Shown here in pieces: positions 4,100 to 32,851 of a stretch of DNA of 32,851 nt (the first letter of the stretch is position 1; the number at the start of each line of letters is the position of its first letter). The notes beneath the pieces were generated by a model that searched no databases, was not told the DNA's origin, and saw only the letters and a program-made list of their open reading frames with translations. The DNA comes from Candidatus Doudnabacteria bacterium (GTDB lineage Bacteria > Patescibacteriota > Doudnabacteria > UBA920): the NCBI GenBank assembly GCA_903908535.1, contig CAIVSE010000009.1:1-32851 (forward strand), written 5' to 3'. Position numbers and translations under genes: made by a program.

Positions 4100-5809
4100 T
4101 TAAGGTGTGGTACTTGTAGAAACGCCCATTAGGCTGTAAATATCAATTGCATTACTTGGCGGTACAATGTTTTCTGTTTTGCCATAATCAGAAAGCGAAT
4201 CACTGAAAGAAATTTCAGCTGTAGTTGGAGTCGTGGAAGCGATGGCCTGGTTTGTGTTTGAACATTGTGACGATGTTCCAGTGCAAGCTATACTATCCTT
4301 AATTCCTAATGGGCTTAATTGCGCTATGCCCGCTTTATGCGCACCGGCATCCGCTCCAATACAAAAGGAATAAGTATAAGAGCTGTAAACTGTTTGTCCT
4401 TTTATAATTTGCTTGGTTCCCATAGGCGTGTACCAATAAGTGTTATAGTAATTACTGCAGTTTCCGTCACTAGGTTCCGGGGCTGTTGGAAGCACGCCGA
4501 TATAATATGGCGTCAGACCCATTGGTTCACCATTGCTGTCGACGGTAGGATAGCCCCCAAAATCGTTATAATATAACTCCAGAGCGGAAGATATCTGCAT
4601 CATGTCCGCCTCTCGTTTAGCGTCCCGAGCCTTAGCCCGGGCAGTTGCCAAAGCCTCTACTCCAACAGAGGTAAGAAACGAGGGCATAGTTGCCGAAGCG
4701 GAAATTTGGTAAAGTCTGGCATCGGTTGCGCCAATCCAGGTTTGAAAATTTTCTACCTGTAAGCTGTTTATTACAGAATCAATTGACGCCTTAATTAAGG
4801 CTAAGCTTACGGGATCAATCGTCAAAGATGGATCCTTTTGCGTTTCAAATGCCGCCAAAGCGTCAAAAGACTGATTAATGGCGTTTACCAACGCGGTTTT
4901 ATCTACTTGATTATTAAAATGGAAAGTCCGTACGCCACTAACTGTTTCCACACCGACGTAATTTTTAATCCCTATTATTCCGGCCTTGGCCCATATGGAT
5001 TTAATTTGGCTGTCTAATTGTGAATCCGGCAAAGCGGAACCGTCCGAAGTAGCCATTGATTCCAATTTCTGCAAATCGATTTTAACCCAGCCAACGGGCT
5101 GTCCCGGGAAGTATTTTTGGAAATATTGGCTCAAAACTGTAGAAGAAGCTACGTTGACATAAATAATATTATCTTTTAACACCACATCCGCCCCCAAATT
5201 AAAATTTATCCCGGAGTCGGTATTAAAGGCTGCCTGGTAACTGCCGCTGGAAACCGGATTCGCGGGGTTGAAGACATCGGAATAGGTATTACCCGACAAA
5301 TTTAGGGTAAAATTATTAAACGGTGGCTGCTCTTGGCTAAAGGCAGCCAAAGAATCCTTGTAGGTGAAATTAAACTGCGATTTAACTTGGGGCGAAGCCT
5401 GGGCCCCTGAAACTAAAAATTTTTGCCAAACTTTAGTCGGGTTGTAAAAACCATAAACAAAATAGGCATAAGCCGCGCCGCCTAAAATAATAACCGCGGC
5501 GGCGACCAGGGCGATTTTGGCACTGCGGCGGGATTTTTGTGCGCCTGATGGCGCCGGGGTTTGGGTCACGCCCGGAGACGTGATAATGGTGGTATGGGCC
5601 GGCCGGAGCTGGCTGATTTCGGCATGAACTAAATTGGCCGGGTTAAAAGCCTGGGCGGCGACCGGAGCCTGTACGGTTTTTTCGTATACAAAACTTTCTT
5701 CCACCACGGCCGCGTCCCAGCCGGCGTTTAAAAGATTTTGCTTAATAGCGACATCCTCCAGGCCGTGTTTGCGCGCTTCCCTTATGTAATTGACAATTGC
5801 TTGTTCCAT
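4100..5809 (-). CDS. Membrane-anchored protein with N-terminal small helical domain, one TM, large extracellular region and C-terminal type IV pilin/GspG-like domain
   Basis: IREARKHGLEDVAIKQNLLNAGWDAAVVEESF N-term; TM at IALVAAAVIILGGAAYAYFVYG; ARAKARDAKREADMMQISSALELYYNDFGGYPT pseudopilin-like segment. Confidence 0.6.
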   Translation of the reverse strand: MEQAIVNYIREARKHGLEDVAIKQNLLNAGWDAAVVEESFVYEKTVQAPVAAQAFNPANLVHAEISQLRPAHTTIITSPGVTQTPAPSGAQKSRRSAKIALVAAAVIILGGAAYAYFVYGFYNPTKVWQKFLVSGAQASPQVKSQFNFTYKDSLAAFSQEQPPFNNFTLNLSGNTYSDVFNPANPVSSGSYQAAFNTDSGINFNLGADVVLKDNIIYVNVASSTVLSQYFQKYFPGQPVGWVKIDLQKLESMATSDGSALPDSQLDSQIKSIWAKAGIIGIKNYVGVETVSGVRTFHFNNQVDKTALVNAINQSFDALAAFETQKDPSLTIDPVSLALIKASIDSVINSLQVENFQTWIGATDARLYQISASATMPSFLTSVGVEALATARAKARDAKREADMMQISSALELYYNDFGGYPTVDSNGEPMGLTPYYIGVLPTAPEPSDGNCSNYYNTYWYTPMGTKQIIKGQTVYSSYTYSFCIGADAGAHKAGIAQLSPLGIKDSIACTGTSSQCSNTNQAIASTTPTTAEISFSDSLSDYGKTENIVPPSNAIDIYSLMGVSTSTTP

Positions 5810-27264: not shown

Positions 27265-30015
27265 CTACCCTCCGACTTTGGCCTGGTGCTGTACACCCGG
27301 CTTTATTATATTGACCTGATGCTCCGGCGTATTCAGCATGCCGCATTTTTTCCACTTTTTGCCGCTACCGCACGGGCAGGGATCGTTACGGCCAATCCCC
27401 TTTGCGGAGGGATCGGATAAATCTGCCACAACTGTTCCCGCCGCGGAGTTCATAACAATGTTCTGTGGTTGCTGATTTACAGGCTGAACCTGGACATTTA
27501 AATGGAAAACCATGTTAACAATCTGCCGGTTCATCTCCTTCAGCAGGCGCTGGAACATTTGGTGGCCCTCGCGTTTGTATTCCACCAAGGGGTCGCGCTG
27601 GCCGTAGCCGCGTAGCCTCACGCTGTCCCGCAAATGGTCCATGGTATCTAAATGCTCCATCCATAACTGATCCACTGACTGCAGAGCCACAAACCTTTGG
27701 CCGCCTTCAAAAATTTCCTTGCCCATTTCAGTTTCCTTTTGCTCCCAATATTTTTCCGCTTCGGCATATATGCTGTCTACCACTGCGAATTCACGGTCGG
27801 CCGCATTGGCGGATTCCTGTTTGATTTTTTCGCCCAAAGCGGCATCAAAAGGAATAATGCCGGAAACTGCTTTAAATAAACTTCCCCAGTCTTCTTTTTT
27901 AGCGCCATTCTCTTCTATAACGTTTAAATTGGCGGTAACAATATTGGTGACTTCCGCTTTAACCAGCTCCAATATCTCCGCCTTTAAGTCCACGTCCTTG
28001 CTTTCTTTAGTGTTGGCCAAATAGCGGCGGCGCCGTTTGTAAATGTTATTGCGCTGGTGGTTTAAGACATCGTCGTAATCCAGTACGTGTTTGCGGGTAT
28101 CAAAGTTCAGGCCTTCAATTTTTTTCTGCGCCGATTCTATGGATTTACTGACCATGCCGGCCTCAATCGGCTGGTCGTCCGGCAGGCCGAGGCGGTTCAT
28201 TAAGTTCTTCATCCGTTCACCGCCGAATAAACGCATAAGGTCATCTTCCATGGACACAAAAAATTGGGATGAACCCGGGTCGCCCTGCCGCCCGCTGCGG
28301 CCGCGCAGCTGGTTATCTATGCGCCGGCTTTCGTGCCGTTCCGTGCCCAAAATGTGCAGGCCGCCGGCTTCGCGCACCACTTTGGCTTCTTCCTCATCAA
28401 TAGGGTTGCCGCCCAGCAAAATGTCCACGCCGCGGCCGGCAATGTTGGTGGCCAAAGTAATTTGCCCGGGCCGCCCGGCCTGGGAAATAATCCTGGCTTC
28501 GTGCTCGTGGTTTTTGGCGTTTAAAATTTCAAACTTTAAGCCCTGTTTTTTAAATTCCTCAGCCAGCATTTCGTTTTTGGCAATACTGACCGTACCAATA
28601 AGCACCGGCTGGCCTTTTTGGTTGCGTTCTTTAACTTCCTTGGCAATGGCTGTAAATTTGGCGGCTTCGGTTTTATAAACCGTGTCATGCAAATCCTGCC
28701 GCACCATGGGCTTGTTGGTGGGAATTTGCTCAACCGTAAGCTGGTAGATTTTAAAGAATTCCTCTTCCTCGGTTTTGGCCGTACCGGTCATGCCGCTAAG
28801 TTTGGCATACAAGCGGAATAAATTCTGGAAGGTAATGGTCGCCAAAGTTTTGCTTTCCTGCTGGATTTTTACGCCTTCTTTGGCTTCTATGGCCTGGTGC
28901 AGGCCCTCTGAGTAGCGGCGGCCGAACATTAGCCGGCCGGTAAATTCATCCACAATAATAATTTCGCCGTCACGAATAACGTAGTCGCGGTCTTTTTTAA
29001 ACAAAGTTTTGGTGCGCAAAGCCTGTTCTATATGGTGGATGGTGGTGACGCCGCCGGAGGTGTCATAAATATTGGGGACGTTTAAAGCTGTTTCTATTTT
29101 ATTGATGCCCTCGTCAATTAAAGAAGCGGCCTTATGCTTTTCATCCACGGTGTAATCTTTGTCTTCTCCCAACTTCTCTACTAATTTCGCGAACTGATAA
29201 TATTTGTCCGTGGGTTCGGCATCCGGCATGCTGATAATTAACGGCGTGCGCGCTTCATCAATTAAAATGCTGTCAACTTCATCCACAATGACGTAAAACA
29301 GTTCGCGCTGCACTAGTTGCGGTTCCTGCTGGGCCATGTTGTCGCGCAAAAAATCAAACCCAAATTCGTTGTTGGTGCCATAAGTAATATCCGCGGCGTA
29401 AGCTTCGCGCCGCTTTACCGGACGCATATGTTTAACATCCATAACCAGTCCCTGGGTTTCGCCTTCCAGTTTGGTAATTTCTTCCTGCTCCGGCTGATAG
29501 CCGGGATCGTAAATAAAAGATTGCTCGTGCTGGATGGAAGAAACCGACAGGCCCAAATAGCGAAAGATGGGGCCCATCAGGGAAGCTTGCCAGCGGGAAA
29601 GATAGTCGTTAACCGTCACCAAATGCGCGCCCTTGCCGGCCAAAGCAAACAGCACCAACGGCAAAGTCGCGGTTAAAGTTTTGCCTTCGCCGGTCTTCAT
29701 TTCGGCAATCTTGTTGTCAGCCAGCACCAGCCCGCCAACTACCTGGACGTCGTAATGGAACTGGCCAATGCTGCGTTTGGCCGCTTCGCGCGTTAAAGCA
29801 AACACCCGCGGCCGAATAACCTTAAGCTGTTTAAAGATTTCTTCGTTGGTCTCCAGCTTGGAAATTTGTAATTGGAAATTGGAAATTTCCTGCTTTATTT
29901 GTTCCTCGCTTAAAGCAGCCACTTCGTCTGTAAAACTGTTGACCTCATCCAGCTCGCTACTATAGGAATCCAGGGCCGTCCTTGAGCCCCCGAACATGCG
30001 TGATAAAAATGACAT
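27265..30015 (-). CDS. secA: Preprotein translocase ATPase SecA
   Basis: MKTGEGKTLTATLP, VDEVDSILIDEARTPLIIS, C-terminal zinc motif GRNDPCPCGSGKKWKKCG. Confidence 0.97.
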   Translation of the reverse strand: MSFLSRMFGGSRTALDSYSSELDEVNSFTDEVAALSEEQIKQEISNFQLQISKLETNEEIFKQLKVIRPRVFALTREAAKRSIGQFHYDVQVVGGLVLADNKIAEMKTGEGKTLTATLPLVLFALAGKGAHLVTVNDYLSRWQASLMGPIFRYLGLSVSSIQHEQSFIYDPGYQPEQEEITKLEGETQGLVMDVKHMRPVKRREAYAADITYGTNNEFGFDFLRDNMAQQEPQLVQRELFYVIVDEVDSILIDEARTPLIISMPDAEPTDKYYQFAKLVEKLGEDKDYTVDEKHKAASLIDEGINKIETALNVPNIYDTSGGVTTIHHIEQALRTKTLFKKDRDYVIRDGEIIIVDEFTGRLMFGRRYSEGLHQAIEAKEGVKIQQESKTLATITFQNLFRLYAKLSGMTGTAKTEEEEFFKIYQLTVEQIPTNKPMVRQDLHDTVYKTEAAKFTAIAKEVKERNQKGQPVLIGTVSIAKNEMLAEEFKKQGLKFEILNAKNHEHEARIISQAGRPGQITLATNIAGRGVDILLGGNPIDEEEAKVVREAGGLHILGTERHESRRIDNQLRGRSGRQGDPGSSQFFVSMEDDLMRLFGGERMKNLMNRLGLPDDQPIEAGMVSKSIESAQKKIEGLNFDTRKHVLDYDDVLNHQRNNIYKRRRRYLANTKESKDVDLKAEILELVKAEVTNIVTANLNVIEENGAKKEDWGSLFKAVSGIIPFDAALGEKIKQESANAADREFAVVDSIYAEAEKYWEQKETEMGKEIFEGGQRFVALQSVDQLWMEHLDTMDHLRDSVRLRGYGQRDPLVEYKREGHQMFQRLLKEMNRQIVNMVFHLNVQVQPVNQQPQNIVMNSAAGTVVADLSDPSAKGIGRNDPCPCGSGKKWKKCGMLNTPEHQVNIIKPGVQHQAKVGG
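29857..29890. repeat. Degenerate 7-nt repeat block (AATTTCC units on minus strand) inside secA
   Basis: Minus strand GGAAATTTCCAATTTCCAATTACAAATTTCCAAG; encodes EISNFQLQISKL. Confidence 0.8.
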
Positions 30016-30022
30016 ATGCCTA

Positions 30023-30031
30023 ATTGTACCA
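30023..30031 (-). promoter_or_regulatory. Extended -10 TGGTACAAT, 7 nt before secA ATG
   Basis: Minus strand TGGTACAAT-TAGGCAT-ATG. Confidence 0.65.
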
Positions 30032-30054
30032 GAAAATGGGAAAGAAAAAAAGGG

Positions 30055-30384
30055 CTATTTCCCCTTAAATTTCCTGGCTGCCCGGCGCTTTTCGCTGATT
30101 TTGCGGTCTTTGGTTTTAACCAGCTGGTCCTTAATTTTGGGCAGAACAAGGTCCATGGCCATATAAAAATCCACGGCTTTGGCATCCGCAAAATGGCCGC
30201 GCGGCTGGATGTCTATTTCCACGCGAAAATTCAGGCCGTCTTTGTCGCCTTTACTGGCCTCCAACTCTATCCTGACCTTGTCTTCCGGCTTTAAAAACCT
30301 TTCCAAAATACTCAATTTATCGTTAACAAACTCTCTGATAGTCGGAGTCAACGTGGTGTTGGTGGCCTTTATGGTGAGGTTCAT
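30055..30384 (-). CDS. hpf: Ribosome hibernation promoting factor / RaiA-family (short form)
   Basis: TIKATNTTLTPTIREFVNDKLSILERFL, VEIDIQPRGHFADAKAVDFYMAMDLVLPKIKDQLVK. Confidence 0.85.
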   Translation of the reverse strand: MNLTIKATNTTLTPTIREFVNDKLSILERFLKPEDKVRIELEASKGDKDGLNFRVEIDIQPRGHFADAKAVDFYMAMDLVLPKIKDQLVKTKDRKISEKRRAARKFKGK

Positions 30385-30430
30385 GGGAATAAAGATTATT
30401 GATTTATTTAATTATAGCACAAACTCCTAG

Positions 30431-30810
30431 ATGGAAGCTTAATTTTTCCTTAGTCCCTCGCCGACCCACTTTGTCAGACACGTTCGGACTTCTCCTGCGG
30501 AAGTCCTTCACTCAACACAGAGTCAGAAAACTTTTATCCCGACTAGTCGGGATAAAAGGCCAAGCTTTTCTGCCTCTGTGATGGTCTTCCAAAGTGGGTT
30601 CGGCTCGGTCTGATACTGAAAAATTAAGCTTCATTTTCCCTATACAGCAGGAGTCGGATTCATTTTTCAGAACCCTCTTTACAGACCAAAAAGCCTGGTC
30701 TTTTTGACTTTCAGTCAAAAAGTTTTTGGGCTGAAAGCGGAGTGAGAATTTTCGCTGGGAAAATTCGAACGTGTTCTGAAAAATGATCCGGCGAGGTGCT
30801 AAGGGAAAAT
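30431..30810. repeat. ~380-bp nested inverted-repeat element in the murB-hpf spacer, including perfect 28-bp palindrome 30531-30558
   Basis: Multiple nested complementary arms read directly (see finding). Confidence 0.85.
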
Positions 30811-30815
30811 GGAGG

Positions 30816-31886
30816 TTAAAATCCAACCAATTCCGGTTCCACTTCCAGTTCTATGCCAAACGTCGCTTTTACCTTATCCAAAACATCATCTTTTAACTGC
30901 AAGACATCACGCGAGGTTGCGGTACCAGTAGCGTTTAAAACTATGGCCGGCTGGGAAAGGTTAATTTGTGCACCGCCTATTTGGTAACCTTTTAAGCCGC
31001 ATAATTCCAGTAAAAACGCGGTCGGAGTTTTATAACCCTGTGGGACTTTTAAGCTGTCCAGCATGCCCTGCAACCTTTGTGACGCATCTGGACCGAAATC
31101 CTGATTGATTTTAGCTTCAATAACTTTTAACTGGTCCGCGGAAATTACCGGCCCGCGGAAAAAGGAGCCGGCATTGCCGTTTACGGCCTGGGCGGGGTAA
31201 GGGAACTTAGAGTCCCTAATTTCTGTAATAGCCTGGCGAATCTGACCAATTGTAGGATCAACAATCTGCCGATCCGCAAAATATTTTTTAATGTCCCCAT
31301 ATTCCAAATTAGGTTTGGGAATTTTTGATAGCCTGATAGTTGTGGATAAAATTAAATATTTACCTTTGTCAGTAATGTTAAAAATGCTGTGCCGATAGGT
31401 AAACTTACAATCGGCGTTGGCAAAATTAATAACGTCCAGAGTTTCCATATCCAGGGCTTCTACGTCTTCCACCACAAAGCTGGCTTCCTGCCCGTACGCG
31501 CCTACGTTCTGCACGGCAAAACCGCCGCAGTTGCCCGGAATGTGCGAAAGATTTTCTATCCCCCACCAATTGTGGTTAACCGCGTATTCCACGGCTGTGT
31601 CCCAGGGTTCTCCCGGCATTAATTTAAGCAAAACCGAGGACTCGTCTTCGTTGACCAATTCCAGTCCGGCCATTTGCGGATGGATGACTAAACCGTTAAA
31701 TCCCCGGTCGCTGACCAAGATATTACTGCCGCCGCCCAAAACAAAAACTTCCAGAGCTTTGGCATTGGCAAACTGTAAAGCCTGTTTTATCTCTTCCAAA
31801 TTGGCAGCCACGCAAAAATATTTGGCCGGTCCGCCAATATGAAAAGTCGTATAAGGAACTAATGAGATTTCTGTTTGGATATCCAT
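30816..31886 (-). CDS. murB: UDP-N-acetylenolpyruvoylglucosamine reductase
   Basis: TTFHIGGPAKYF, LGGGSNILVSDRGFNGLVI, NGNAGSFFRGP. Confidence 0.95.
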   Translation of the reverse strand: MDIQTEISLVPYTTFHIGGPAKYFCVAANLEEIKQALQFANAKALEVFVLGGGSNILVSDRGFNGLVIHPQMAGLELVNEDESSVLLKLMPGEPWDTAVEYAVNHNWWGIENLSHIPGNCGGFAVQNVGAYGQEASFVVEDVEALDMETLDVINFANADCKFTYRHSIFNITDKGKYLILSTTIRLSKIPKPNLEYGDIKKYFADRQIVDPTIGQIRQAITEIRDSKFPYPAQAVNGNAGSFFRGPVISADQLKVIEAKINQDFGPDASQRLQGMLDSLKVPQGYKTPTAFLLELCGLKGYQIGGAQINLSQPAIVLNATGTATSRDVLQLKDDVLDKVKATFGIELEVEPELVGF

Positions 31887-31935
31887 AGATTAAGATACTT
31901 AATTTAAGACCAACCCTTGGCGGCCTTTTTCTTAT

Positions 31936-31973
31936 ATGTAGGCGATTTAAGGTTTGGCTTAATTCGCCTACAT
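31936..31973. repeat. Inverted repeat ATGTAGGCGATTTAAG-GTTTGG-CTTAATTCGCCTACAT between murC and murB
   Basis: 16-nt arms with one mismatch; no U-tract after it on the minus strand. Confidence 0.85.
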
Positions 31974-31988
31974 TACCAAAAAAATACC

Positions 31989-32851
31989 CTACCCAAGAGA
32001 TTTTTTTAATTCATATCCTAAACGGTTAAAATCACCGACTGCCATTACCACCACCACATCGCCGGATTTTAATTCCGCTTTTAAAATATTCAGGGCTGCC
32101 TGTTTGTTATGGACCAGCCGAATGTTAGAGGTTTTGTTTTCCGCTTTAATTCTTTCCACAACTTCCTCCGACTTAATTGTCGCTGCCGAAGCTTTTTCGC
32201 GCGCCGGATAGATTTCCGAAATTAAAACTTCATCAGCGGTGTCAAAGGCTTTAACCAAATATTCCAAGGTAGCTTTGGTGCGGCTAAAAGTATGCGGCTC
32301 AAACACCGCCCAGAGTTTGGAAATTGAAGATTGGGAATTGGAAATTTGAGGGAAATACTTTAACCTTGCCGCTTCCAAGGTTTCGCGCACGGCCGTGGGA
32401 TGATGGGCGTAATCATCCACAATAATAACCCCATTCTTTTCACCCACAACTTCAAACCGCCGTTTCACACCCTGGTAAGACAATAACTCCAAAGCAATCT
32501 GGTCCTGGGAAAACCCCAAGGTCCGCAAAGTGGCAATCACGGCCAAAGCATTGTAAACATTAATTTTCCCGGGCAGCTGGATTTTATAATCCTCTGTCAG
32601 CCCCATTAAATGCGCGCTGACATTTTTGGAAAAATTATTTAAGACTTCAATGGTGGTGTATTCCCGTCCGTACTGGATATTTTCAATCTTAAAATTGGCC
32701 GCGTCATCAAAACCAAAACTGGCCTGGGATATATTGGATTTATGCGCCAGTTTAACCAATCCCGGGTCATCGGCATTATAAACAATTAGGCCGTCTTCCG
32801 GCATGGCCTGCACCAGTTCATCAAATTCGTTTTCATAATCCGCAAAACTGG
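31989..32851 (-). CDS. murC: UDP-N-acetylmuramate--alanine ligase, C-terminal part; 5' end beyond right edge
   Basis: DDYAHHPTAVRETLEAA, FEPHTFSRTKATL, frame stays open to 32851. Confidence 0.93.
   Translation of the reverse strand, partial: SFADYENEFDELVQAMPEDGLIVYNADDPGLVKLAHKSNISQASFGFDDAANFKIENIQYGREYTTIEVLNNFSKNVSAHLMGLTEDYKIQLPGKINVYNALAVIATLRTLGFSQDQIALELLSYQGVKRRFEVVGEKNGVIIVDDYAHHPTAVRETLEAARLKYFPQISNSQSSISKLWAVFEPHTFSRTKATLEYLVKAFDTADEVLISEIYPAREKASAATIKSEEVVERIKAENKTSNIRLVHNKQAALNILKAELKSGDVVVVMAVGDFNRLGYELKKSLG
32313..32349. repeat. Degenerate 7-nt repeat block inside murC
   Basis: Minus strand CAAATTTCCAATTCCCAATCTTCAATTTCCAAACTC; encodes QISNSQSSISKL, like the secA block. Confidence 0.8.

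Follow-up and report, generated by a model that had tools for sequence, protein, structure and literature searches.

The spacer between murB and hpf in the window (the whole 32,851-nt stretch of Candidatus Doudnabacteria DNA analyzed here) consists of two inverted, tail-to-tail copies, A and B, of one repeat unit of about 150–190 bp. The explanation we favor, with a probability of roughly 0.6, is that the unit is a new non-autonomous, dispersed, branched DNA element resembling REPs, in which the constraint falls on the folded DNA strand.

An earlier, sequence-only reading had described nearly the whole spacer as self-complementary, and folding confirmed this. The segment from 30400 to 30820 had folding energies of −170.1 and −174.3 kcal/mol on the two strands, compared with means of −105 and −110 for 100 dinucleotide-preserving shuffles of each strand (z = −10.3 and −10.9); on both strands, none of the 100 shuffles folded equally well. 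A repeat search recovered the main arm pairs proposed in that reading, 30434–30448 with 30618–30632 (15 of 15 bases) and 30660–30673 with 30773–30786 (14 of 14), as well as the palindrome at 30531–30558. It also gave the pairs 30464–30479/30584–30599, 30513–30530/30566–30583, and 30700–30709/30713–30722. The suggested cross-pairing of the outer arms was genuine (30624–30641 with 30802–30819) and follows from the two sub-elements being the same unit in opposite orientations. Among the hairpins proposed, that at 30700–30722 is present in the family consensus, and that at 30683–30701 competes with it; positions 30693–30699 are a conserved unpaired bulge in the consensus. Two sub-elements are indeed present, but the design does not rest on one long duplex: each half, of about 150–190 bp, is a unit, and units are frequently arranged tail to tail as a doublet. 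No convincing open reading frame had been seen, and the longest frame across the spacer was a TTG ORF of 104 aa on the minus strand.

The doublet occupies positions 30436–30811 (~376 bp). Unit A (30436–30634, plus strand) is full length, as its arms and fold show, has the terminal inverted repeat CTTAATTTTTC...GAAAAATTAAG, and matches covariance model R1 at 30450–30612 (150.4 bits). Unit B (30632–30811, minus strand), also full length, lies in the opposite orientation and matches R1 at 30645–30802 (153.4 bits); an AAGCTT junction is common to both units. In unit A, stem P2 is formed by 30460–30473 and 30590–30604; hairpin P3 (GGACTTC/GAAGTCC) lies at 30486–30506, with a conserved 7-nt loop, TCCTGCG, at 30493–30499; and arm P4/P5 spans 30516–30580, P5 being the perfect palindrome. 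At 30559–30565, a bulge on one side only reads GCCAAGC and is conserved (family motif ACC[AG]NGC). In unit B, stem P2 is formed by 30656–30673 and 30773–30789, hairpin P3 lies at 30746–30766 with the minus-strand loop CCCAGCG (CGCTGGG on the plus strand, 30753–30759), and P5 is the hairpin at 30700–30722. The conserved bulge of unit B, at 30693–30699, reads ACCAGGC on the minus strand. Stems P2, arm P4/P5 of unit A, and P5 of unit B were assigned from both the repeat search and the fold, the P3 hairpins from the fold, and the bulges of both units from the fold and the frequency of the motif in the family. The host flanks, both on the minus strand, are hpf/raiA (30055–30384; Ribosomal_S30AE, Pfam PF02482, E = 3.3e-15), which is outside the element, and murB (30816–31886; Pfam PF02873 and PF01565), whose stop codon is 4 bp from unit B.

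When the spacer was compared by blastn with the source genome (1.04 Mb in 93 contigs), 46 matches were found at some 25 places. Because many of these places held single units, to which A matched in one orientation and B in the other, we take the 150–190-bp half to be the basic element. Model R1 was built from 20 source-genome copies, and covariance-model searches put the number of units in this genome at about 32. The unit is an imperfect palindrome. Folded as a single strand, it forms a Y, in which the long stem P1/P2 leads to a three-way junction carrying the short hairpin P3 and arm P4/P5. A simple search found the P3 loop motif CC[ATG]GC in 41 of 43 units (loop consensus CC[ATG]GCG), and the motif ACC[AG]NGC was present in the one-sided P4/P5 bulge in 34 of 43. 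These loop and bulge letters are conserved; the stem letters vary while the arms stay complementary. In 30 units from other genera, double changes were seen at all 52 modeled pairs, with 613 double-change cells compared with 190 in shuffles. The covariation score was 0.907, compared with 0.222 for shuffled units and at most 0.18 when the partners were slid by 1–3 columns; the alignment of these 30 units had been fitted to the model, which biases it towards structure, though far less than would explain the excess. RNAalifold applied to a plain MAFFT alignment of the source-genome copies gave double changes at 39 of 49 pairs.

Comparison with relatives provided an empty site. murB was found in 17 family relatives, and in every one of them hpf was adjacent to it, with 50–131 bp between the matched coding regions. 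The source-genome spacer is 435 bp, of which 51 + 4 bp remain outside the doublet. Because 17 relatives keep this junction with so little between the genes, the ~376-bp doublet is an insertion a few bp past the murB stop, without which the spacer would be of normal size. The gene order secA-hpf-murB-murC (window 27265–32849) is retained in most family relatives. Elsewhere, a unit at L093:1501–1650 lies in frame within a 541-aa protein, and a PMT profile spans this unit with about 35 extra residues. Near-identical copies (93–95%) occupy different places in two genomes. The earlier suggestion of a non-autonomous mobile element is thus supported by dispersed copies, empty sites in 17 relatives, a patchy distribution in the phylum, and an in-frame insertion. 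No target-site duplication was seen by eye at 27 copies in the source genome or at the near-identical copies in two other genomes. Units also lie between apparent aspS and scpA genes at L030:2022–2176 and L110:1282–1427. These two units have opposite relative orientations and come from two different families, and so probably inserted independently at that one junction.

When 85,000 species were scanned for a pattern, ten stretches came up, and R1 confirmed four of them. All four were from CPR genomes: two Candidatus Wolfebacteria, one Paceibacterota, and one Parcubacteria. For the matches outside the CPR (L077, L078, L081, L082, L083, and L085), R1 did not confirm full units. A second model, R2, made from 37 copies from 5 genomes, identified 20 further unit-bearing genomes among 380 of the phylum, which together with the source genome represent 19 genera; overall, the patchy distribution of units within this phylum takes in at least 20 genera. 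A more sensitive model pass yielded 146 matches in 25 genomes, with 1–32 in each (32 in the source genome, then 15, 12, 11, 10, 10, and fewer). Units were about 59% identical between genomes (median), and the best pairs within a genome reached 93–95%. No unit was found in any of the 48 other genomes examined from the same order or class. Rfam contained no family for the unit, its only matches being weak ones between hairpins and plant miRNA families, under the gathering scores; a DNA-pattern search of IMG/VR and a distant blastn search against phages and plasmids gave no match; and open-licence papers yielded no account of CPR repeats that are palindromic or structured. The unit represents a previously undescribed, dispersed, and probably mobile repeat family. 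The small genomes of its phylum and the named matches suggest that the source genome belongs to the CPR. Ultra-small CPR genomes are regarded as streamlined, yet about 32 copies of a large structured repeat are present in this one, and other members of the phylum carry the family patchily.

The position of units relative to genes was scored in 57 units with usable gene calls, which were simple ORF picks. Thirty-one began no more than 30 nt from the stop of a co-oriented gene; the mirror arrangement, with the end of the unit near the stop codon of an oppositely oriented gene, was seen 6 times (p = 4e-5). In the source genome, the terminal repeat often begins 1–6 nt behind the stop. Where two units were less than 300 bp apart (10 pairs in four genomes), 9 pairs were tail to tail, 1 was head to head, and none was tandem; L107 contained one more tail-to-tail pair. 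Judged by eye from their sequences, the neighbors are ordinary genes, among them secA, dnaX, uvrB, pyrG, groEL, and trpS. Only housekeeping families recurred beside units, and the genes between neighboring units were housekeeping or of no known function.

Such placement would fit a structured RNA at mRNA 3′ ends, transcribed with the upstream gene, stabilizing or terminating its message, and spread by recombination but kept for its use. The strong conserved fold with fixed unpaired motifs, typical of structured RNA, also speaks for this explanation. We nevertheless consider it unlikely, since the neighboring genes are unrelated, G-U pairs are few, the sense strand shows no excess of G-T over A-C, Rfam has no match, and units are absent from all of the same-class genomes mentioned above. 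Moreover, a T-tract follows only some inner hairpins (three in units A and B) and does not follow the full unit. For the same reasons of unrelated neighbors, scarce G-U, and no Rfam match, the earlier alternative, that the murB-hpf transcript contains a large structured RNA, now has less support. The raiA RNA, which the adjacent raiA/hpf gene suggested, was rejected; other copies lie at unrelated genes.

Mismatches within the stems, whose pairs are nearly all Watson–Crick, bear on whether DNA or RNA is constrained. Watson–Crick-only folds, which treat G-T and A-C equally, were made for 82 units; on the plus strand they contained 10 isolated G-T and 35 isolated A-C mismatches, spread over many positions (two-sided binomial probability about 2e-4, computed for 10 of 46). 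When G-U pairing was permitted, it accounted for 2.9% of pairs on the plus strand and 3.9% on the minus strand, compared with 11.1% in shuffled units and 6.9% in a small control of 11 tRNAs from the same loci. In model-fitted alignments, which lean towards G-U, G-T and A-C were about equal (41 and 56, not significant). Because RNA from the plus strand should show the opposite, the mismatch lean favors DNA over RNA. We regard this as moderate evidence, only moderate because the control set is small, that the stems are constrained as DNA self-complementarity, perhaps with the bottom strand folded. The perfect stems could in part reflect template-switch repair of palindromes rather than selection, and the mRNA-sense orientation bias and the intricacy of the conserved unpaired motifs would also be compatible with some function as RNA at 3′ ends.

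Folded bottom strands are used by integrons. Their attC sites are placed behind cassette genes, and the sequence of the stem is free. These sites are folded bottom strands with extrahelical bases (PMC3053210), and the unit is like them in principle only, as a folded-strand palindrome with conserved unpaired bases. An attC-like site, whose folded bottom strand is recombined by a tyrosine recombinase and for which the genes ahead of units are cassettes, would account for the variable stems and conserved unpaired bases, the fixed orientation right behind a gene, and the mismatch lean towards a folded bottom strand. We give this explanation very little credence, because the unit is branched, its conserved motifs look different by eye, its neighbors are housekeeping genes rather than cassette arrays, and no dedicated integrase was found. 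Most copy-rich genomes encode one protein with a tyrosine recombinase domain, the same as unit-free genomes, and one genome with 6 units encodes none. A dedicated tyrosine recombinase was accordingly not found as a mobilizer.

Nor were units associated with the Y1_Tnp domain: of 25 genomes with units 11 had it, as did 20 of 40 without units, and it was missing from the copy-rich, near-complete genomes G080, G387, and G110. The four Y1 transposase copies of the source genome have ends unrelated to the unit, and this enzyme was rejected as mobilizer. These tests speak against both a Y1 transposase of the IS200 type and a dedicated tyrosine recombinase as mobilizer. The strand-specific hairpin recognition of IS200/IS605 elements remains a model for the mechanism that we infer for the unit, but the two IS200-type copies in the source genome carry simple hairpins of their own, unrelated to the unit. 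As a separate observation, a RAYT-like Y1 transposase gene at L045:1400–2180 is bounded by GGGGACATGACCC and GGGTCATGTCCCC, and this boundary sequence directly borders a unit in L041 (~1960–1982).

Units that were MITEs in the strict sense would be the remnant ends of a larger autonomous transposon. Source-genome units do end in a 10–12-bp inverted repeat, CTTMATTTTYCC, and tail-to-tail pairs and half-unit foldbacks exist. The terminal repeat is, however, private to the source genome, other genomes showing only a variable stem end, no clear target-site duplication was seen, and no Y1 transposase association was detected. A parent transposon with matching ends was not found: the source-genome Y1 transposases lack unit ends, and no transposase was found between neighboring units. 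We judge a MITE origin to be highly improbable.

In its behavior the branched element resembles REPs, palindromes of 20–50 nt with an unpaired GTAG or CGTC at the hairpin foot (PMC8266576). REPs are extragenic, lie mostly downstream of genes and sometimes in ORFs, have irregular stems, often form inverted dimers (head to head or tail to tail), and are served by the TnpA-REP enzyme (PMC3733652, PMC8266576). Like REP, BIME, and REPIN sequences, the units are dispersed, extragenic, mostly downstream of genes, often paired as inverted dimers, irregular in their stems, and in one case placed within an ORF. They differ in being 150–190 nt long and branched at a three-way junction rather than simple hairpins of 20–50 nt, in lacking the GTAG or CGTC tag, their conserved letters being in inner loops, and in lacking association with a Y1 transposase (TnpA-REP/RAYT). 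No shared foot motif was found by eye in the unit flanks across genomes, TTAG being common only at source-genome copies. The family works like REPs without being a member of them: it shares their habits but not their defining features. In the explanation we favor, selective constraint would act on the folded DNA strand, and a protein would read the unpaired loop and bulge motifs. The same protein may copy or insert the folded strand near gene ends, as is thought for TnpA-REP in the spreading of REPs, and the host would tolerate copies just after genes.

Rickettsia palindromic elements (RPE), palindromes of about 100–150 bp, are dispersed in a small genome and sometimes lie in frame within genes. 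Compared by description only, the unit is similar as a dispersed palindrome in a small genome with one copy in frame in a gene; it differs in its three-way junction and in belonging to another phylum. If folding at the DNA level is correct, the family would be a third kind of folded-strand recognition element beside REP and attC. A bolder proposal, which we hold to be doubtful, is that the units are phylum-wide, single-strand-folding mobile DNA recognized by the three-way junction plus two fixed unpaired motifs. Something other than a Y1/HUH transposase or dedicated tyrosine recombinase would move them (possibly XerD or another ssDNA enzyme), and insertion would be directed behind stop codons. 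The covariation is strong enough for a copy-finding model, so the distribution, spread, and enzyme can be searched for systematically.

Several variant structures were observed. Foldbacks of two left arms in inverted orientation occurred at L027:3236–3305, L034:489–600, and L035:137–341, as would result from loss of the central part of a tail-to-tail doublet. A second dispersed hairpin, CCGCCAGACC and GGTCTGGCGG around an AT-rich loop, lies beside many units (L033 ~4335–4385, L028 ~2358–2395, and the flanks of L027, L038, and L039). Because CAGACC...GGTCTG arms surround the whole unit in L032 and L040, this hairpin may be an empty or collapsed form of the unit. At L087:1489–1670, the flanks beyond the shared unit are complementary (TTACAGCGTC/GACGCTGTAA) and are followed by TTTTT, as if the unit lay in the loop of an intrinsic terminator.
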